Source of the DNA: Clostridia bacterium
Lineage (GTDB): Bacteria; Bacillota; Clostridia; Christensenellales; Borkfalkiaceae
Assembly: GCA_017463205.1 (NCBI GenBank)
Contig: JAFTPQ010000013.1
Coordinates: 1-47,721 of the forward strand
Length of the DNA stretch: 47,721 nt
Direction: 5' to 3'
The notes under the pieces: model-generated
What the model saw: only the letters and a program-made list of their open reading frames with translations
The model's database searches: none
What the model was told of the DNA's origin: nothing
Position numbers and translations under genes: made by a program
Part shown: piece by piece, positions 13,168 through 23,022 of the stretch
How positions within the stretch are numbered: the stretch's first letter is position 1
Layout of the letters: the number at the start of each line of letters is the position of its first letter

Positions 13168-14082
13168 TTACACTTGTTTAATGTCGTAAGGCGTACTTTG
13201 ATATACGAAATAATTCAACCAGTTGGAAAACAGCAAATGCGCGTGTCCGCGCCACGAAACCAACGGCGGTTGCGTCGGATCGTCGTTCGGGAAATAATGG
13301 ACGGGGATCTTGATGGGTTTTCCTTGCGACAGATCGCGCAAATATTCGTTTTTCAACGTGTCCGCGTCGTATTCCGAATGTCCCGTAATGAAAAATTGCC
13401 GTCCGTTTTTTGCCGATACGGCATAAACGCCTGTTTCTGTAGACGACGCCAAAATTTTTAAATCGCTCACTTGTTCGATATCTTCGCGAAGGACGGTCGT
13501 GTGACGGGATTGCGGTACGTAAAACACGTCGTCAAAGCCACGGAACAACATCGATTTTTTATGCTCCGCCCGATGCGGAAACACGCCGAACATCTTTTCG
13601 GGGACTTCATATTTTTTAATGCCGTAATGATAATACAGCCCCGCTTGCGCGCCCCAACAAACGTGCAGAGTGCTGTGTACGTGCGTTTTGCTCCATTCCA
13701 TGATCGAGCACAATTCTTGCCAATATTCCACTTCCTCAAAAGGCATATGTTCGACGGGCGCGCCCGTGATGATCATACCGTCGAAATTTTCCTCTTTTAC
13801 GTCGTCGAAGGTTTTATAAAAAGCCAAAAGATGTTCTTCCGCAACGTTTTTCGATTGATGGGATTTGGTGTGGATCAACTCCATTTCCACTTGCAAAGGG
13901 GAATTTCCCAAAAGCCGTGCAAATTGCGTTTCCGTTTCTATTTTTTTCGGCATCAAATTCAACACCAAAATCCGCAGAGGACGAATGTCTTGCGTGATCG
14001 CACGGTGTTCGGTCATAACGAAAATATTTTCGCTTTCCAGCGTTTTAACGGCGGGGAGGTTGTTGGGGATCTTAATAGGCAT
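13168..14082 (-). CDS. metA: Homoserine O-acetyltransferase of the MetA family
   Basis: A 304-residue MetA-family enzyme that acylates the homoserine hydroxyl in methionine synthesis. The catalytic Cys142 (HVCWGAQ), His235 and Glu237 (GHSEYD) are at the canonical positions. Residue 111 is Glu (GAPVEHMPF). In published work on this family Glu111 goes with acetyl-CoA use and Gly111 with succinyl-CoA, so the product is predicted to be O-acetylhomoserine even though the family is often named succinyltransferase. The downstream-acting MetY is encoded just upstream, 71 bases away on the same strand, which agrees. AAGGTGA lies seven bases before the start. Confidence 0.94.
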
Positions 14083-14153: not shown

Positions 14154-15440
14154 TTAAAGGATTGCCAACGCCTGTTCGATATCGGCGATCAAATCTTGAT
14201 AATTTTCAATGCCGCAGGAAAGACGAACCAAATCGCCGGGAACGCCCGCCGCGATCAATTCTTCTTCATTCATTTGACGATGCGTTGCGCTGGCAGGATG
14301 CAAACAGCAACTGCGCGCGTCGGCAACGTGCGTTTCGATCGCAATGATCCGCAACGCTTTCATAAACTTTTCCGCCGCCGCTCTGCCGCCTTTTACGCCG
14401 AAACTCACCACGCCGCAAGTGCCGTTCGGCATATATTTTTGCGCCGTTTGATAATAACGGTTAGAGGGCAAGCCGGGATAATTTACCCAACCGATTTTTT
14501 CGTTACTTTCCAAATATTCCGCCACTTTTTGAGCGTTGAAACAATGCCGTTCCATGCGCACGTGCAAACTTTCCAAGCCGAGGTTTAAATAAAACGCGCT
14601 TTGCGGCGATTGCGTGCAACCGAAATCACGCATCAGTTGCGCCGTCGCTTTGGTGATAAACGCGCCGCCTTGTCCAAATTTTTCCGCATACGTAATGCCG
14701 TGATAGCTGGCGTCGGGCGTGCAAAGTCCGGGGAATTTTTCCGCATGCGCCATCCAATCGAATTTACCCGAATCCACGATACAACCGCCGACAGCAACAC
14801 CATGACCGTCCATGTATTTGGTGGTGGAATGGGTTACGATGTCTGCGCCGAACTCAAACGGACGGCAGTTGATAGGGGTGGCGAAAGTGTTGTCGAGGAT
14901 AAGGGGAACGCCGTGCGCGTGCGCCGCCGTTGCGAATTTTTCAATATCCAACACCGTCAAAGCAGGGTTTGCGATCGTTTCGCCAAACACAGCCTTGGTG
15001 TTGGGGCGGAACGCCGCGTTCAGTTCTTCCGCGCTGCAATCGGGGGACACAAACGTAAAATCAATGCCCATTTTTTTCATCGTAACGGCAAACAGATTGT
15101 ACGTGCCGCCGTAAATAGAGGAGGAGGAAATTACGTGATCGCCGCAACTTGCGATGTTGAAGACGGAGAAAAAATTTGCCGCTTGTCCCGATGATAATAA
15201 CATTGCCGCGCTACCGCCTTCCAAAGCACAAATTTTTGCCGCTACCGTGTCGCAGGTGGGATTTTGCAAACGGGAATAAAAATATCCGCTCGCTTCCAAA
15301 TCGAACAATTTTCCCATATCTTCGCTGGTGGCGTATTTAAAAGTCGTGCTTTGCACGATAGGCACTTGTCTGGGTTCGCCGTTGCCGGGTGCATACCCGC
15401 CCTGTACGCAAGTCGTTTCTATTTTGCATTGTTTTTTCAT
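14154..15440 (-). CDS. metY: O-acetylhomoserine sulfhydrylase / aminocarboxypropyltransferase
   Basis: A 428-residue PLP enzyme of the Cys/Met metabolism family that converts O-acetylhomoserine plus sulfide to homocysteine. The PLP lysine is in HSTTKYMDGHG; SSGQAAN near the N-terminal third and YSRLQNPT bind cofactor and substrate. Length and the FVSPD/ETIANPAL region fit MetY rather than the shorter cystathionine gamma-synthases (about 380-400 residues). It is first in the metY-metA operon. AGGAGAG precedes the ATG. The promoter ends about 85 bases upstream of the start, leaving little room for a SAM riboswitch, and none is seen. Confidence 0.94.
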   Translation of the reverse strand: MKKQCKIETTCVQGGYAPGNGEPRQVPIVQSTTFKYATSEDMGKLFDLEASGYFYSRLQNPTCDTVAAKICALEGGSAAMLLSSGQAANFFSVFNIASCGDHVISSSSIYGGTYNLFAVTMKKMGIDFTFVSPDCSAEELNAAFRPNTKAVFGETIANPALTVLDIEKFATAAHAHGVPLILDNTFATPINCRPFEFGADIVTHSTTKYMDGHGVAVGGCIVDSGKFDWMAHAEKFPGLCTPDASYHGITYAEKFGQGGAFITKATAQLMRDFGCTQSPQSAFYLNLGLESLHVRMERHCFNAQKVAEYLESNEKIGWVNYPGLPSNRYYQTAQKYMPNGTCGVVSFGVKGGRAAAEKFMKALRIIAIETHVADARSCCLHPASATHRQMNEEELIAAGVPGDLVRLSCGIENYQDLIADIEQALAIL

Positions 15441-15635: not shown

Positions 15636-17786
15636 ATGAAAAAGAGAACGGTTTTGTGTTTTTGCGCGGCGGTTTGCGCTTGCGGTGCGTTTACAGGTTG
15701 TAAAAAGGAAACGGAGGACGATTTTTTAAACGACGTCGTCGTTCGAGAACATTACGATTCCGTTTACGGCGCGATCGGGGAAAACGTGACGATCGATATG
15801 GTGACGGAGAAAGAGGACGGCAAAGCGTATGCGACGGTGGATGGCACGGAATACGAATTGGGTATGGACTTTTTATCCATGGCGATGGTGTATAACGTTA
15901 CGCCCGTAGGCAGGTATCAAACGCCGACGGAGGTGTACAACGAATGGTGGCGGCTGTTTATGCAACGCTGGAATCTGCTCCTTCCCGAAGTGCCTTTGTA
16001 TTCCAATCAATATTACGATATTTATAACGCCAAGATCGACCGCTTGCAAACCAATCCCTATTGGAATGCCACCAACGCGATCGTGGGGGCGAAAGTGACG
16101 TCGGGGGACAACGCCGTCATTTTGGGCAGCAACACCGAATTGACGGGCGCATTTCGCAACGCCGCGTTTGGGAAGTCTGCGCCGGGCGCTGCCGATCTGG
16201 CGATCGAAACGCTGACAAGCGGATATTCCACCGTCGTTACGGACATGGGTGGCACGTATGTGTGGGCGGATACGAAAATATTGCCCTCGCACTCCGAAAG
16301 AAAAAACGAGGACGGAACAAAAACGTTTACGATGAAAATTGCCGCCGACCTGACGTTTTCGGACGGTTCGCCCATTTATGCCGAGCATTATCTCGTAGGG
16401 CTTTTGGCAGGAAGCAGTAAGGTGATGAAAGAGGCGGGCGGCGGCGAGGCGGCAGGATTGCAATTGTACGGTTATGAAGACTTTAACGCTTACGGCGGGC
16501 AAGGATCGCCCGTTCCCTTTCAAGGGGTGCGGTTGTTGGATAAATACACGTTTTCGGTGACGGTGAAGAAAGAATACGCCGATTATTATTACGCATTGCG
16601 TTACGCGGCGTTTACGCCTGTCCCGACGTCGTTGTATATCGGAAACTATGCGATCAAAGACGACGGAAACGGGGCGTATATCGAGCAGGGATTTTATGAA
16701 AATGAAGAAAAAAACGGAGTGACGGGTTATAAAATGTCGAACGTCATCGTGAAAAACGTAAATGAAACTTCGGCGGCGGCATTTCCCTATTCCGGTCCGT
16801 ATTCGGTGGAAAGTTACGATCAAAGCGCGAAAGTGGCGACGTTAAAGCGGAACGCTCGGTATAAAGGGGATCATCGCGGCGTGCCGTCGATCGATAAAAT
16901 TTCCTATGTAAAAATCGTTCCCGAAACGCAGTTGGATCAGTTGCGGCAGGGTAGAGTGGACGTATTGGCGTCGGTGACGGGCGGAGAAGAAACGAAAGCG
17001 GCGCTCAGCGTGGTGGACGGCGTTAAATTTAAAGAAACGCATTACGATCGGGCAGGGTATGGCAAATTGGCGTTCCGTTGCGATTTCGGACCTACGCAGT
17101 TTGAGGAAGTGCGCCGCGCCGTTGCGTACACCATAGACAGAAACGAGTTTGCGCAAACCTTTACGGGCGGTTACGGAAGCGTGGTAGACGCGCCTTATTA
17201 TACGGGCTCGGCAACCTATCAGGCTGTGAAAGACAAGTTGAAATTAAACCGATACGAATACAGCGTGGAGAAGGCGAAAGAGGAATTGCGAAACGGCGGC
17301 TGGATATACAATGCGGACGGCGGCGCGTACGACGAGGCGAAAGGTGGCGTGCGATATAAAAAATTGAGCGGTTATCAATTGTCGTATAACAATTTGGCGT
17401 TTGCGGCGGTGGACGGAAAATACCGCACGTTGAAAAGGGACGGCGAGTATTATATGCCGTTGGTCATCAATTGGATGGGAACGCAACCAAACCCCGTCAC
17501 CGATCAATTGATCACGGCGTGGCAAAACAATCCCAACGCAGGGGCGAAGATCGGGGCGTATCTCACGTATACGTCGGGGGATATGACGTCGGCGTTGTAC
17601 GGAGAATATTACCAAATGCCTGCGTATGGATTTACGCGCGCTCGGTTCGGGGCGGTGAATTTCGCTACGGGATTTACCAGCGCGGCGTACGATCAGGCGT
17701 TTTCTTGGACGCTCGATCCGGCGATGTACGACAATTACAGTGCCAATTATTTGCGCGACGAGGCGGACTATTTGAAAAAAGACTGA
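15636..17786 (+). CDS. oppA: Peptide ABC transporter substrate-binding lipoprotein (SBP family 5)
   Basis: A 716-residue extracellular binding protein of an oligopeptide/dipeptide-type importer. A Lys/Arg start, hydrophobic core and lipobox FTGC (Cys at about residue 24) mark a lipoprotein. The family-5 signature region is seen around KIAADLTFSDGSPIYAEHYL, and later VATLKRNARYKG and AVAYTIDRNEFAQTF, as in OppA. It is longer than typical OppA (about 540 residues), with an extra N-terminal region of about 150 residues before the core. ATG 15636 has GAGGTGG upstream; an ATG at 15597 has no ribosome binding site. It heads the five-gene transporter operon. Confidence 0.9.
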   Translation: MKKRTVLCFCAAVCACGAFTGCKKETEDDFLNDVVVREHYDSVYGAIGENVTIDMVTEKEDGKAYATVDGTEYELGMDFLSMAMVYNVTPVGRYQTPTEVYNEWWRLFMQRWNLLLPEVPLYSNQYYDIYNAKIDRLQTNPYWNATNAIVGAKVTSGDNAVILGSNTELTGAFRNAAFGKSAPGAADLAIETLTSGYSTVVTDMGGTYVWADTKILPSHSERKNEDGTKTFTMKIAADLTFSDGSPIYAEHYLVGLLAGSSKVMKEAGGGEAAGLQLYGYEDFNAYGGQGSPVPFQGVRLLDKYTFSVTVKKEYADYYYALRYAAFTPVPTSLYIGNYAIKDDGNGAYIEQGFYENEEKNGVTGYKMSNVIVKNVNETSAAAFPYSGPYSVESYDQSAKVATLKRNARYKGDHRGVPSIDKISYVKIVPETQLDQLRQGRVDVLASVTGGEETKAALSVVDGVKFKETHYDRAGYGKLAFRCDFGPTQFEEVRRAVAYTIDRNEFAQTFTGGYGSVVDAPYYTGSATYQAVKDKLKLNRYEYSVEKAKEELRNGGWIYNADGGAYDEAKGGVRYKKLSGYQLSYNNLAFAAVDGKYRTLKRDGEYYMPLVINWMGTQPNPVTDQLITAWQNNPNAGAKIGAYLTYTSGDMTSALYGEYYQMPAYGFTRARFGAVNFATGFTSAAYDQAFSWTLDPAMYDNYSANYLRDEADYLKKD

Positions 17787-17860: not shown

Positions 17861-18877
17861 ATGGCAAATTATATTTTAAAACGCTTGTTTTATATGCTGT
17901 TGGTACTGTTGGCGCTGTCTTTTTTGGTGTTTTGCGTGTATAATTTATTGCCCGTGGATAAAGCGGCGGACATGGCGATGCAGGAGATCGCCGCCAATAA
18001 AAATTTGATTTATGCCGAACGGTATTTATATTGGCAACGCCGTTTCGGGTTGGACGGCGGCTTGTTGACGAGGTATTTCCGTTGGGTGGGGCTTGCGCCC
18101 TTTTACGACGGCGGTTTTCGCGGTTTGTTGCAAGGGGAACTCGGTACGTCGGTGGCGTATGGAAAGCCCGTGATCGAGGTGATCAAACAGCCTCTTTTCA
18201 ACACCGTGCTGCTGAATACGTTCGGCGCGGTGGCGGCGCTTGGTATCACCATTCCGTTGGGAATTTTTTGCGCGGCGAAAAAGGGGAGTAAGCGCGATCT
18301 TGCCGTACAGGTGGGGACGATCGTCGGATACAGTATGCCCGTGTTTATCATCGCCATTTTATTCATTTGGCTGTTTGCCGTTAAATTGAATATCTTTCCC
18401 GTATCGGGTATGTCTTCCGTCGGCAAAGAATATACGGGCTTTCGCGCATTTTTGGATAAATTATACCATTTTTGTCTGCCGTTGATCGTGATGACGTTTT
18501 GCTCGCTTGGGGGAATGACGAGATACGTTCGGGCGTCTATGATCGACGCGCTCGGTTTGGACTGTATCCGCACGGCGCGGGCGAAAGGTTTGCGTGAAAA
18601 TGCCGTTGTTAAAAGCCATGCTTGGCGAAACGCCTTGATCCCGATCGTCGCTCTTGTTATCGGTTGGCTGTTGGGGATATTTTCGGGCTCGATTATGGTG
18701 GAAAATATTTTCGGGTTGAACGGGATCGGAAAAGTGTATTTCGACGCGTTGACGGCAAACGACAACGAAATCGTGTTGGCGATGCAGATGTTTTATATAA
18801 TATTGGCGTTGGTGGGAAATTTGTTGGTCGATCTTGCCTACGGATTGGTCGATCCGCGTATCCGCGTTCATAAATAA
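17861..18877 (+). CDS. oppB: Peptide ABC transporter permease OppB/DppB
   Basis: A 338-residue inner-membrane permease with six hydrophobic segments. The N-terminus (YILKRLFYMLLVLLALS) and the EAA coupling loop (YVRASMIDAL...DCIRTARAKGL) are typical of the OppB/DppB half, as is the final DLAYGLVDPRIR. The loop between TM1 and TM2 is normal in length, unlike its partner OppC. AAAGGGGAG precedes the start. It is 74 bases after the binding-protein gene and 11 bases before oppC. Confidence 0.94.
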   Translation: MANYILKRLFYMLLVLLALSFLVFCVYNLLPVDKAADMAMQEIAANKNLIYAERYLYWQRRFGLDGGLLTRYFRWVGLAPFYDGGFRGLLQGELGTSVAYGKPVIEVIKQPLFNTVLLNTFGAVAALGITIPLGIFCAAKKGSKRDLAVQVGTIVGYSMPVFIIAILFIWLFAVKLNIFPVSGMSSVGKEYTGFRAFLDKLYHFCLPLIVMTFCSLGGMTRYVRASMIDALGLDCIRTARAKGLRENAVVKSHAWRNALIPIVALVIGWLLGIFSGSIMVENIFGLNGIGKVYFDALTANDNEIVLAMQMFYIILALVGNLLVDLAYGLVDPRIRVHK

Positions 18878-18888
18878 GAGGGAAAAAG

Positions 18889-20871
18889 ATGAAAAAAGAT
18901 CGCAAGGAAAAAAGTTGGATAAAACGCGCTTACGGGCGTACCGTGTACGTGTTGAAATGTTTTTTCAGGCGTGCAAAGCGTTGGGGTAAACGCTTATTTT
19001 TCGGCGCGAAGACCGAGTGGAACAGCGAGGATATAGAAAACGAAATCGAAAGCCCGTCCCATCTTTTAAAAGAAGCCTTTTTCGGGAAAAAGACGTCGGT
19101 TTTTGCGCTTATTTTGCTTGCGACAATATTTTTATTTGTCTTTATCGCGCCCATTTTTGCGCCGATGGACGTCAATTACACCGACCCGTTACAACAAAAC
19201 GTACCACCGTCTTTTTCGTTGCGTTCTCCGCCCCGAAAATTGCGAAAATCGGTGGAAATGATCGACGGCTTTTCCGATTTTTCCGTGGGACTGTCGAAAG
19301 ACGGCGACGTGTTTGTTTGGGGAAATACCGACGGCGGACTGCTGGATATCGATTTTAAAAAGATACCCGAAGACGTAACAAAAGAAGGCGCGGTTTTCGT
19401 ATCGGCGGGGAAAGATCACGTCATCGCCGTCACAAAAACGGGTAAAATCGTCGGTTGGGGGGATAAAAGTTGCGGTCAGTACGGCGGAGAACCCATTTTA
19501 AACGTTCTTCCAATGCCGTCCGAGTTGCTTTCGCCCATTTCCCCCGATACCGTGGCGCACCTTTCTTGCGGTTATCAAGCGACGGCGTTGACGTTGACGG
19601 ACGGCAGAGCGTATTTATGGGGCAACCAAAACGCCGTTCGCAATCTTGCCGATTTGCAGAATTTGCAAACGTCTTCCGAGGTGAAAAAAGTCGAATTTAC
19701 CAATTCGGTTGCGATCGCATTGTTGAAAAGCGGACGGATCACGACAGGCGCGCAGACGTTTTTCACCTCTGCCGTCAGTTTGAAAAACGGCGAACAAAAA
19801 AGATTGGATACACCGCTCGACGCATACCTGGTAGGCAGAAACGTAATTGAAATTGCTGCCGGCAATAAATGCATCGCCCTGTTGACGGAAGAGGGGGAAC
19901 TCATCGTATCGGGCGTTTTTGAAAACGGCGAAGACGTGTTGCCGCATTTAAAAAAAGACGAAAAATTTCTTTTTTTGGACGGCGGGACTCGGCATTTTCT
20001 CGGCGTCACCGATCAAGGCAACGTGTACGCTTGGGGGCATAACGCATATGGACAATGCGATATCCGCTCGTCGAAAATTGCAGGCAAAGCGCAGCGCGCG
20101 TATGCGGGTTCGTTGCAATCGTACGTTGTGGACGGAGATGGAAAATTGATCGAAAGCGCGGGGCTTAGAGGATATTTGATGGGAACGGACGGCAGGGGAC
20201 GCGACGTGTTTACGCGTATCATTCACGGCGGAAAAATGACACTTACCATTGGGGCGGTAGCGGTGTTGGTGTCGTCGGTCATCGCCATTGTCGTGGGGTG
20301 CTTATCCGGCTATTTCGGCGGCTGGATCGATACACTGCTTATGCGGATCACCGAAATTTTCGCGTCGATGCCCTTTTTGCCGTTTGCAATGTTGCTTTCC
20401 CAAATCATCAAAAATTACAGCGTTTCCGAAACGATGCGCATTTTTATCATTATGCTGATTTTGGGCGCGCTTTCGTGGACGGGTTTGGCGCGTATGATCC
20501 GCGGTCAGGTGTTGGCGGAACGGGAAAAAGAATTTGTAACGGCGGCGCGCGCTATGGGGGTGAAAGAGAGCAAAATTGCCTTTCGGCACGTATTGCCAAA
20601 CGTCGTATCGGTGATCCTCGTCAGTATGACGTTGAGTTTCGCAAGCTGTCTGTTGACGGAATCTTCCTTGTCATATTTGGGCTTTGGGGTGCAGCAACCG
20701 CAACCGACGTGGGGGAATATGTTGACGGGCAGCAACAACAGCACCGTCATTCAAAATTATTGGTGGCAGTGGCTGTTCCCTGCGATATTTTTGTCGATCG
20801 CCGTCATTTGTATCAACGTGATCGGGGACGCATTACGGGACGCGCTCGATCCAAAATCAAGAGAGAAATAA
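18889..20871 (+). CDS. oppC: Peptide ABC transporter permease OppC/DppC with inserted RCC1-like beta-propeller
   Basis: A 660-residue permease, about twice the usual 300. Residues 1-68 are a basic cytoplasmic tail and 69-92 are TM1. The usual extracellular linker DVNYTDPLQQNVPPS (94-108) is then interrupted by about 300 residues of RCC1-like repeats (roughly 120-420). After that the protein resumes exactly where OppC should, with LMGTDGRGRDVFTRIIHGG (430-448) and the remaining five membrane segments, including the EAA loop (EFVTAARAMGVKES). The permease half looks intact and functional. The insert is in frame, in the same base composition, and sits between normal oppB and oppD genes, so it is a true domain insertion rather than a chimeric assembly. 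Orientation puts the propeller outside the cell next to the binding-protein docking face. Confidence 0.93.
   Translation: MKKDRKEKSWIKRAYGRTVYVLKCFFRRAKRWGKRLFFGAKTEWNSEDIENEIESPSHLLKEAFFGKKTSVFALILLATIFLFVFIAPIFAPMDVNYTDPLQQNVPPSFSLRSPPRKLRKSVEMIDGFSDFSVGLSKDGDVFVWGNTDGGLLDIDFKKIPEDVTKEGAVFVSAGKDHVIAVTKTGKIVGWGDKSCGQYGGEPILNVLPMPSELLSPISPDTVAHLSCGYQATALTLTDGRAYLWGNQNAVRNLADLQNLQTSSEVKKVEFTNSVAIALLKSGRITTGAQTFFTSAVSLKNGEQKRLDTPLDAYLVGRNVIEIAAGNKCIALLTEEGELIVSGVFENGEDVLPHLKKDEKFLFLDGGTRHFLGVTDQGNVYAWGHNAYGQCDIRSSKIAGKAQRAYAGSLQSYVVDGDGKLIESAGLRGYLMGTDGRGRDVFTRIIHGGKMTLTIGAVAVLVSSVIAIVVGCLSGYFGGWIDTLLMRITEIFASMPFLPFAMLLSQIIKNYSVSETMRIFIIMLILGALSWTGLARMIRGQVLAEREKEFVTAARAMGVKESKIAFRHVLPNVVSVILVSMTLSFASCLLTESSLSYLGFGVQQPQPTWGNMLTGSNNSTVIQNYWWQWLFPAIFLSIAVICINVIGDALRDALDPKSREK
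19246..20148 (+). other. RCC1-like repeat domain inserted in OppC
   Basis: Six to seven degenerate repeats with the RCC1 pattern (V-x-x-G-x-x-H-x-x-A-L-x-x-x-G-x-V-x-x-W-G): DFSVGLSKDGDVFVWGN, VSAGKDHVIAVTKTGKIVGWG then CGQYG, LSCGYQATALTLTDGRAYLWGN, an eroded repeat near NSVAIALLKSGRITTGA, IAAGNKCIALLTEEGELIVSG, and LDGGTRHFLGVTDQGNVYAWGHNAYGQ, ending in a partial SYVVDGDGKL. The spacing of 45-55 residues fits propeller blades. RCC1-fold propellers act as protein-binding platforms; the secreted Streptomyces inhibitor BLIP-II is an extracellular example. Confidence 0.85.
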
Positions 20872-20921: not shown

Positions 20922-21950
20922 ATGGCGTTGTTGGAAGTGGAAGATCTGCGCGTATGTTTTAAAACGAGAAAAGGGATCGTGCGCGCGGTGAACGGCGTTT
21001 CCTTTTCGGTGGAAGAAGGGAAAACGTTGGCGATCGTGGGGGAATCGGGTTCGGGGAAAAGCGTTTCCGCAATGAGTATTTTGCGCCTTTTGGACGAAAA
21101 CGGATATATCGAAAGCGGCAAAATTCTATTTTCAGCCGAACAAGGGAAGGTAGATCTGGCGGCGTTGCCACTTGAAAAGATGTATGCGATCCGCGGCAAT
21201 CAAATTTCCGTCATTTTTCAAGAGCCGATGACGGCGCTCAATCCCGTTTTCACTGTCGGCAGGCAGTTATCCGAGCCTTTCCTCATTCACCGAAATATGA
21301 CGAAAAAGCAGGCGTTTGACGCCGCGCTGGATATGCTGGCTTCCGTTCAGATCCCTTCGCCGCAACGGGTGATCAAGCAATACGCGCACCAACTATCGGG
21401 GGGGATGCGGCAACGGGTGATGATCGCAATGGCGCTTGCCTGTCAACCGAAAATTTTGATCGCCGACGAGCCGACAACGGCGTTGGACGTTACGATACAA
21501 GCGCAAATTTTGCGGCTGATGAAACAGTTGCAGGAAAAAAACGGAACGGCAATTTTATTTATCACGCACGATCTGGGCGTCGTCAACGAAATGGCGGACG
21601 ACGTGGCGGTGATGTACTGCGGACAGGTGGTTGAGCGGACGTCTGTCAAAACGGTGTTTTCCGACGGCGGATATTCCCATCCGTACACCGAGGGACTGTT
21701 GCTTTCCGCGCCGAGTAAACAAGCGGGCAAACGGTTGGAAACGATCCCCGGGAACGTACCGCATCCGTTGCGCTTGCCCAAGGGTTGTAAATTTGCCCCG
21801 CGATGCAGATATTGCACGCAAAAATGCATAGAGGAAGAACCGCAATTGAAGGAAGTGGCATCAGGGCAGTGGGCGCGCTGTTTTTATCCGAAAAAAGCCG
21901 AGCGAAGGAGCGAAGAACATGGAAAAATTATTATCAATCGTCGATCTTAA
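20922..21950 (+). CDS. oppD: Peptide ABC transporter ATPase OppD/DppD
   Basis: A 342-residue cytoplasmic ATPase. Walker A is GESGSGKS, the signature is LSGGMRQR, Walker B is ILIADEPTTALD, and the switch His is in ITHDLGVV. The C-terminal OppD/DppD extension contains CKFAPRCRYCTQKC, the cysteine-rich motif that often carries an Fe-S cluster in this subfamily. AAGGAG lies upstream. It overlaps the start of oppF by 32 bases, suggesting translational coupling. Confidence 0.95.
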   Translation: MALLEVEDLRVCFKTRKGIVRAVNGVSFSVEEGKTLAIVGESGSGKSVSAMSILRLLDENGYIESGKILFSAEQGKVDLAALPLEKMYAIRGNQISVIFQEPMTALNPVFTVGRQLSEPFLIHRNMTKKQAFDAALDMLASVQIPSPQRVIKQYAHQLSGGMRQRVMIAMALACQPKILIADEPTTALDVTIQAQILRLMKQLQEKNGTAILFITHDLGVVNEMADDVAVMYCGQVVERTSVKTVFSDGGYSHPYTEGLLLSAPSKQAGKRLETIPGNVPHPLRLPKGCKFAPRCRYCTQKCIEEEPQLKEVASGQWARCFYPKKAERRSEEHGKIIINRRS

Positions 21951-23022
21951 AAAATATTTTCCGTTGCCGAAAAGTTCGTTGTTTCAAAAGCAACGCCCGT
22001 ATTTGCGCGCCAACGAGGGGATCACACTGGACATTGAAAAGGGGGAAACGTTCGGCTTGGTGGGGGAAAGCGGTTGCGGAAAATCCACGTTTGGCAGAAC
22101 GCTGTTACATTTGTATAAGCCGACGTCGGGGCAGGTGTTGTATTACGGAAAAACGGCGGCGGGATTTGCTCCGAAATATTTACAAAAAGAAAAGCAAAAT
22201 TCAACCCAAAAAGACGAAACGGAGGGGGCAGGTATCGATCTAACGCGTTTGACGTCAAAAGAAATGCGCTTCTTGCGGCGAGATCTGCAAATCATTTTTC
22301 AAGATCCGTATTCCTCGCTCGATCCGCGTATGACGTTGGGACAGATCATCGAGGAAGGGGTGGCAACGCATAAAATTTATAAGCGCGGTTCTGCCGAAAT
22401 GCGCCGTTACGTAGCGGAAACCGTAGAAAAATGCGGCTTGCAATCGTATATGCTGCATCGTTATCCCCATCAATTTTCAGGCGGTCAGCGTCAACGCATT
22501 TGTATTGCCCGCGCGCTGGCTGTCAAACCGAAATTCGTCGTTTGCGACGAATGTGTTTCCGCATTGGATGTGTCCATTCAATCGCAGATCCTCAATCTGC
22601 TGTCCGATCTAAAGGAAAAAGAGGGGCTAACCTATCTGTTTATTTCACACGATCTGTCGGTCGTGCGGTACGTTTCCGATCGTATCGGCGTAATGTATTT
22701 GGGCCAGATCGTAGAACTCGGCAGTGCGCGCGACGTGTTTGAAACGCCGCTCCATCCGTATACGATCGCTTTGATCAGCGCGATCCCGACGACGGAACAA
22801 AACAAAGACGCAACGAAAATAATATTAAAAGAGGGGATCCCCAATCCCGTATCGCCACCCAAAGGTTGTCCGTTCCACACCCGTTGCTTCATGGCACAAG
22901 AATGCTGTCAACGCATACCTGCCCCCTATGTAGAGGTAAAAAAAGGGCATTTTGTCGCTTGTCATTTTGCAAAAATGCCTACGGAAGAAAAACGGAAAAA
23001 CGCAACGCATTCCGCTTTGTAA
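21919..23022 (+). CDS. oppF: Peptide ABC transporter ATPase OppF/DppF
   Basis: A 367-residue second ATPase of the importer. Walker A is GESGCGKS, the signature is FSGGQRQR, and the switch is ISHDLSVV. Walker B reads FVVCDECVSALD: the catalytic Glu is kept, but the usual Pro after it is Cys. About 30 extra residues, rich in Lys/Gln/Glu, lie between Walker A and the Q-loop (about 76-106). The C-terminal CPFHTRC motif is present. AAGGAG precedes the ATG inside oppD. This is the last gene of the operon. Confidence 0.95.
   Translation: MEKLLSIVDLKKYFPLPKSSLFQKQRPYLRANEGITLDIEKGETFGLVGESGCGKSTFGRTLLHLYKPTSGQVLYYGKTAAGFAPKYLQKEKQNSTQKDETEGAGIDLTRLTSKEMRFLRRDLQIIFQDPYSSLDPRMTLGQIIEEGVATHKIYKRGSAEMRRYVAETVEKCGLQSYMLHRYPHQFSGGQRQRICIARALAVKPKFVVCDECVSALDVSIQSQILNLLSDLKEKEGLTYLFISHDLSVVRYVSDRIGVMYLGQIVELGSARDVFETPLHPYTIALISAIPTTEQNKDATKIILKEGIPNPVSPPKGCPFHTRCFMAQECCQRIPAPYVEVKKGHFVACHFAKMPTEEKRKNATHSAL

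Follow-up and report, generated by a model that had tools for sequence, protein, structure and literature searches.

The window analysed here, a stretch of 47,721 nucleotides from a Clostridia bacterium (contig JAFTPQ010000013.1 of assembly GCA_017463205.1), contains an oppA-oppB-oppC-oppD-oppF operon. Its oppC gene (18,889 to 20,871; all features of the operon are on the forward strand) encodes a protein of 660 residues with a large RCC1/BLIP-II-type domain inserted between the first two transmembrane segments (TM1 and TM2). By its domains and operon, the protein is an OppC-type ATP-binding cassette (ABC) permease, for which peptide import is predicted. The architecture, its conservation and a circular permutation of the accompanying OppA are apparent from the sequences compared, and one origin is the simplest reading of them; the closed propeller fold, the contact with OppA and the purpose of docking are what we infer. 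We tentatively propose that the domain is a second docking arm for OppA, complementing a scoop of the DppB type.

Pfam models assigned the two ends of the protein to OppC_N (residues 63-107, E 5e-7, 29.9 bits against a curated cut-off of 23.9) and BPD_transp_1 (residues 466-658, E 1e-34, 120.1 bits against 26.4). The RCC1-type matches fell within residues 120-390 and exceeded the cut-offs for RCC1_2 (E 3e-24, 84.6 bits against 22) and RCC1 (E 1e-7, 32.8 bits against 21.7), and the longer WD40_RLD model (E 8e-34, 118 bits) remained below its cut-off of 150. In the alignment with the solved OppC 8z21_B, residues 427-658 were paired with 80-302 (185 bits) and the N-terminal residues 46-103 weakly with 15-72 (7.8 bits, the OppC_N match nonetheless being above its cut-off), which leaves about 323 extra residues where 8z21_B has about 7. 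The insertion site lies between TM1 (residues 71-89, 19,099 to 19,155, placed by hydropathy and within the OppC_N match) and the GTDGRGRD motif. The membrane part resumes at residues 428-660 (20,170 to 20,868), as delimited by BPD_transp_1 and the 8z21_B alignment. The hydropathy scan, which recovered five of the six expected transmembrane segments, found none above threshold in residues 109-427 (top 19-residue mean 1.13 compared with 2.94 for TM1), and residues 1-68 are basic (19 K/R, 9 D/E). The insert would thus lie outside the cell, given its position after TM1, the basic N-terminus and the lack of a hydrophobic stretch. A preliminary description of the sequence, which had seen an OppC-type permease with an RCC1-like insert in its first extracellular loop, is borne out by these results.

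The domain as a whole (residues 109-427; 19,213 to 20,169) was delimited by Pfam, a profile search of PDB structures and a comparison of its repeats. By eye, the domain divides into seven repeats of about 41 residues (from 44 down to 24 in the related locus L184). With boundaries also placed by eye, they occupy in the window residues 118-164 (19,240 to 19,380), 165-219 (19,381 to 19,545), 220-263 (19,546 to 19,677), 264-317 (19,678 to 19,839; without the WG pair), 318-357 (19,840 to 19,959), 358-401 (19,960 to 20,091) and 402-426 (20,092 to 20,166), the last one being short and continuing into GLRGYLMGTD. Profiles of the repeats built from 112 sequences recognised one another as seven homologous units with HHalign probabilities of 29-99%, which fixes at seven what had been counted as six to seven. 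Five control segments taken elsewhere in the protein did not exceed 10.8% in any pair except with themselves. Profiles from the 80 nearer sequences alone left repeat 7 unrecognised (0.7-10.2%) and gave only 2.7% for repeats 4 and 6, so that the recognition of repeat 7 and the clear repeat picture are due to the distant members added. A profile of 38 aligned inserts, whose identity to the window's domain drops as low as 23%, matched the solved structures of HERC2 (4e-50), UVR8 (6e-48), BLIP-II (1jtd, 2e-36) and human-type RCC1 (1a12, 6e-36), these E-values being summed over several overlapping stretches. Going by these families, the repeats most likely close into a seven-bladed β-propeller. Free-standing RCC1-repeat proteins, possibly cousins of the OppC propeller, were observed in two genomes of the window's genus (L053, 3,701 to 5,311, and L054, 4,030 to 5,550, both on the reverse strand); by eye, their N-terminus looks like a signal sequence, and a hydrophobic segment lies at the C-terminal end.

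The propeller OppC is widespread and patchy. When presence was scored as a match spanning both the insert and the membrane part in overlapping genome samples, the protein was found in 34/57 genomes of the window's genus, 18/201 genomes of the family sample, 34/396 of the order sample, 13/291 of the class sample (in two pieces in G804 and incompletely in G768, for which the insert profile gave confirming scores of 401 and 146 bits, respectively) and 9/299 of the phylum sample. Of the 12 genus genomes that are at least 90% complete and at most 5% contaminated, seven have the protein, which, together with the count for all 57, marks the transporter as accessory. When a collection of 84,980 species was scanned by pattern, 270 relatives came up; the best 80 were kept, and all 80 matched the insert profile, which is no unbiased rate because the query contained the insert. 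By NCBI ranks, 77 of these 80 are Clostridia, and many of their record titles refer to gut sites of ruminants and other animals. In total, 136 loci were collected, with 111 OppC proteins distinct by their last 300 residues. The locus L108 comes from Candidatus Fimimonas merdipullorum, placed by NCBI in Myxococcota, yet its OppC is 51% identical to that of the window, as in Clostridia; this is perhaps a problem of the taxonomy label.

The window derives from a fragmented metagenome-assembled genome (73 contigs, 73% complete), which might suggest an artefact of assembly or annotation. This explanation was rejected and its probability is negligible, as the domain occurs in all of the best 80 relatives, in the cultured and named strain DSM 23669 of Acetatifactor muris, a harmless gut commensal, and in the single-contig genomes G613 and G631. 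The chimera that the preliminary description had named as fatal to its own proposal is contradicted by the same strain and genomes and by the 136 loci.

A quick method was used to calculate a tree of OppC from its membrane part alone. The 115 rows comprised 66 propeller proteins, 31 proteins with long loops of other kinds and 18 with short loops; L053 and L054, in which no OppC was assigned, were dropped. All propeller rows were on one side of a single branch with a support of 94, which is under the starred level of 95, and long branches were flagged. The scores of the membrane part were split in the same way, reaching 309.6-461.0 bits at all 136 loci with the domain and 116.1-264.1 bits at the 58 loci without it, where the insert profile never matched. 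No loss of the propeller within its group was seen on the tree or in the score split, although such a variant could be missed, as members were found by insert-containing queries and non-members were hand-picked from hit lists. The sample is read most simply as one gain without any loss; on the tree alone, gain and loss cannot be separated.

The propeller is not the only large insert at this site. Related OppC paralogues have large insertions in the same position, between TM1 and a GTD-type motif, that lack RCC1 repeats (L045, L046, L049-L051, L056-L058, L062, L155-L157, L159, L161, L164, L166, L167 and L170-L173), and by eye these belong to at least two further sequence classes. No Pfam family scored above its cut-off in the ten of them that were scanned. 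Rough sizes of the OppC loop were about 150-560 residues at 40 of the 58 non-propeller loci. The TM1-TM2 loop of OppC looks like a general site for extracellular domains.

The OppA of the window (15,636 to 17,786; 716 residues) was taken to be normal in the preliminary description but, judged by the order of its segments, is circularly permuted. It is a family-5 (cluster C) substrate-binding protein (SBP_bac_5, E 1.4e-33, 116.9 bits against a cut-off of 32.4) and probably a lipoprotein, with a lipobox-like FTGC at residue 22 by eye. Its N-terminal portion includes some 90 residues (64-155; 15,825 to 16,100) that canonical relatives carry at the C-terminus, and these precede the core with which canonical relatives begin (residues 161-711; 16,116 to 17,768). 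Hidden Markov models (HMMs) of the tail and the core recognised them in this inverted order with 131.5 and 778.2 bits, respectively. Comparison by blastp with the OppA of L025, L026, L109, L184, L199 and L206 gave two segments in swapped order, and a single collinear match was obtained with L028, L029, L031, L032, L092, L097 and L134 (L095 and L202 were absent from the set). Similarly, residues 357-525 and 98-150 matched residues 147-308 and 504-556 of the solved OppA 9p48_A (562 residues; 88.7 bits, with E 2.5e-5 for the second piece alone), both segments thus being present in opposite order.

Separate core and tail profiles classified OppA at 130 propeller loci as permuted in 86 cases, canonical in 40 and without a tail in four (L074, L076, L095 and L143, with OppA open reading frames (ORFs) of 235-549 residues); with duplicates collapsed, 65 permuted and 37 canonical proteins remained. 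At 24 other loci, none was permuted, 18 were canonical with weak tail scores of 13-65 bits and six had no recognisable tail. No OppA holding the segment twice was found. On the OppC tree, the split between permuted and canonical forms in 79 labelled rows is explained by a single change on a branch with a support of 14, which is compatible with one permutation event without establishing it. In the 291 class genomes, a profile of the permuted junction matched over its full length in three (G000, G603 and G804), all of which have the propeller OppC. OppA was matched at E≤1e-20 in 12 of these genomes, 11 of them with the propeller OppC; the exception, G688, has a contig that breaks off within oppA. 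Two of the 13 propeller genomes of the class (G703 and G863) had no such match.

An enlarged OppA had been proposed to have co-evolved with the propeller. The median length was 650 residues (598-784) in 23 propeller operons outside the nearer relatives, 569 (546-604) in 12 operons with a short-loop OppC and 772.5 (584-906) in 12 operons with other OppC inserts, OppA having been assigned at only 24 of the 58 non-propeller loci. OppA length does not track the propeller specifically; the proposal was rejected as stated, and general loop size fits better. The loci L059 and L060, with OppC proteins of 357 and 367 residues next to first ORFs of 877 and 844 residues that the profile did not assign as OppA, speak against the loop-size link too. 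The permutation and the other inserts in the OppC loop are additions to what the preliminary description contained.

The insert stands at the TM1-TM2 position of the subunit that corresponds to DppC, on the side where docking of OppA is expected. The report on E. coli DppABCDF describes a scoop motif after TM1 of DppB that fills the cleft of DppA, striking differences between DppB and DppC that concern TM1 and the periplasmic regions TM1-TM2 and TM3-TM4, contacts of DppB with DppD and of DppC with DppF, and DppA capping both permeases (PMC12136057). The operon would encode an OppABCDF-type (type I) peptide importer in which the propeller, placed in the extracellular TM1-TM2 loop of OppC, binds OppA so as to keep it above the translocator or set its orientation there. 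This docking would complement the TM1-TM2 scoop that DppB inserts between the lobes of its binding protein. The permutation of OppA ties the lipid anchor to a segment that is C-terminal elsewhere, an arrangement that, speculatively, is perhaps tolerated as the propeller already holds OppA.

Contact between the propeller and OppA should show itself in joint evolutionary change. For six proteins or protein parts, branch lengths on one topology were therefore compared by partial correlations with all the others held constant. This test covered 85 of 100 complete operons, namely 12 of the 27 from the window's genus and 73 from elsewhere; filtering by length retained 121 of 167 branches. An earlier version based on residuals against the mean of the six parts had forced negative values (OppA-OppD -0.67) and was replaced. 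The partial correlation of OppA with the propeller was +0.52 (bootstrap 0.36 to 0.68), and that of OppB with the propeller was -0.03. The other values included +0.57 for OppA-OppB, +0.41 for OppB and the OppC membrane part, +0.76 for OppD-OppF and +0.32 for the OppC membrane part and the propeller. With four parts only (OppB and the OppC membrane part being controlled for), OppA-propeller values of +0.42 to +0.57 were obtained in five subsets of branches (middle-length, terminal, internal, permuted-side and other-side). The method earns some credit because the pairs OppA-OppB, OppB-OppC and OppD-OppF are contacts in solved importers.

Several observations weigh against a docking arm. The rate method misses contacts that have been described, giving +0.09 for OppB-OppD, -0.22 for the OppC membrane part and OppF and -0.02 for OppA and the OppC membrane part, and it links the propeller to OppF (+0.28 on log values, +0.42 on ranks), which docking does not explain. 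Shared extracellular exposure of the fast-evolving OppA and propeller could produce a rate link without contact, the comparison having been confined to Opp subunits and their parts. Importers with a plain OppC manage without the domain, and, judged by eye, OppB itself apparently still has a long TM1-TM2 region. Of the three parts of OppC for which conservation was measured, the domain also scores lowest (2.12 bits, compared with 2.51 for the N-terminal part and 3.32 for the membrane part), and its best-conserved positions are mostly residues of the repeat motif, with no evident docking patch. Because of the missed contacts, the link to OppF and the possible effect of exposure, our confidence in the docking arm is a little under one half. 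The docking suggested in the preliminary description is indirectly favoured by the covariation and by the position equivalent to that of the DppB scoop, and it is weakened by the incomplete recovery of known contacts.

The propeller could instead be an independent receptor for a partner other than OppA, such as a peptide or protein substrate, the cell wall or a surface protein of a host or neighbour, and bring the transporter close to its food source. Protein binders are known among RCC1/BLIP-II propellers (PMC9218822), the animal gut sites in the record titles would suit such a role, and the domain evolves fast, with a summed tree length of 40.1 per site compared with 13.0 for the OppC membrane part (OppF, at 40.0, is equally fast). 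We nevertheless consider this unlikely in view of the close linkage of the propeller to one OppA subfamily and its covariation in rate with OppA and not with OppB; moreover, recognition of the substrate would already come from OppA. A steric or structural element without specific binding, acting as a spacer, a lid or a shield round the extracellular vestibule, would agree with the other large inserts in the same loop, where bulk may outweigh fold. The retention of one repeat family at all 136 propeller loci in spite of the low identities points to more than bulk, and this role seems distinctly improbable to us. There is very little to be expected of a signalling element that reports the occupancy of OppA or its ligand to another membrane or surface protein. 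Such a role has been proposed for Bce-type transporters, which have a variable extracellular domain proposed to recognise antimicrobial peptides and which form a complex with a histidine kinase (PMC11466899); for the propeller, the idea is an analogy, the neighbours outside the Opp set having been listed by size. As for the docking arm, a bolder form of it is doubtful: a separate importer lineage, mainly in Clostridia, in which a propeller receptor borne by the permease holds OppA semi-permanently and in which OppA, freed from the usual docking geometry, was then permuted.

In comparison with the known OppABCDF and DppABCDF systems (solved permeases 8z21, 8z1v, 8j5q and 8wd9), the importer shares OppC_N and BPD_transp_1 in OppC, two oligo_HPY ATPases, a family-5 binding protein and the gene order A-B-C-D-F. 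It differs in the RCC1-type domain of about 320 residues between TM1 and TM2 of OppC and in the permuted OppA. Opp4C, Opp4B and Opp4A are the best NCBIfam matches of OppC, OppB and OppA, but the scores of 310, 242 and 56 bits are under the cut-offs of 350, 450 and 650; the OppC match (310.3 bits) covers residues 428-656, leaves residues 1-427 unmatched and does not qualify the protein as an Opp4C equivalog. The domain has the repeat signature and profile matches of BLIP-II (1jtd, 3qhy), RCC1, UVR8 and HERC2. Those propellers are soluble proteins or soluble domains, whereas that of the window interrupts a permease. Like the DppB scoop, it is a TM1-TM2 element on the outer side of a permease, for which we suppose the contact with the binding protein that the scoop makes. 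The scoop, as excerpted from PMC12136057, consists of about 30 residues in two short helices and a loop and belongs to DppB, not to the OppC side. Searches of the open-licence literature of PubMed Central (PMC), outside which most subscription journals lie, brought up no description of an RCC1-type domain in an ABC permease, nor, going by titles and abstract openings, one of a naturally permuted binding protein. The statement that no importer with this architecture had been described is therefore uncontradicted within that literature; the parts are of known kinds and, to our knowledge, their combination in one importer is new.

Type I importers are commonly depicted with a conserved core and with short permease loops to which the binding protein docks. 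In the present case, the permease has, once on present evidence, gained a large domain of a recognisable protein-binding kind and kept it across many families of Clostridia, alongside a binding protein that is naturally permuted; this offers a testable case of a translocator acquiring its own receptor. Canonical and permuted OppA proteins inside one group are a natural experiment on anchor point and docking. The other large domains in the same OppC loop suggest that model systems understate the variety on the outer surface of peptide importers.

The remaining genes of the operon encode the first permease subunit OppB (17,861 to 18,877; 338 residues; BPD_transp_1, E 1.3e-34) and the ATPases OppD (20,922 to 21,950; 342 residues; ABC_tran, E 7.5e-29; oligo_HPY, E 1e-16) and OppF (21,919 to 23,022; 367 residues; ABC_tran, E 6.8e-29), both of the oligo_HPY type. 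The five genes form an operon in the window and likewise in relatives, and their order was the same in all 11 propeller operons tabulated, including that of the single-contig genome L201, in which two OppA-type genes stand in tandem ahead of oppB. In eight of nine aligned relatives (L025, L092, L134, L184, L194, L200, L201 and L206), OppF has an insert of 150-200 residues between the Walker A region and the Q-loop, which is charged and possibly a coiled coil. It is nearly absent from the window and from L031 of the same genus (10 OppF proteins aligned including that of the window), and OppF ORFs are mostly 341-484 residues long in this genus and mostly 488-590 elsewhere. Since loss of the OppF insert has not entailed loss of the propeller, neither is an obligate partner of the other. 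Among loci with another class of OppC insert, L046, L047, L049, L051 and L062 have one ATPase ORF of 721-748 residues with a part of roughly 500 residues before the OppD match.

No RNA regulator was found in the window at the Rfam gathering thresholds. Upstream of the operon, two divergently transcribed genes on the reverse strand (13,168 to 14,082 and 14,154 to 15,440) encode what we take to be methionine biosynthesis enzymes by their look, and ORFs of similar size occupy that place at many loci of the genus. The propeller OppCs of L027/L103, L177 and L182 have N-termini before TM1 that are roughly 105-170 residues longer than that of the window, the one of L027 being rich in A, E, K and Q.

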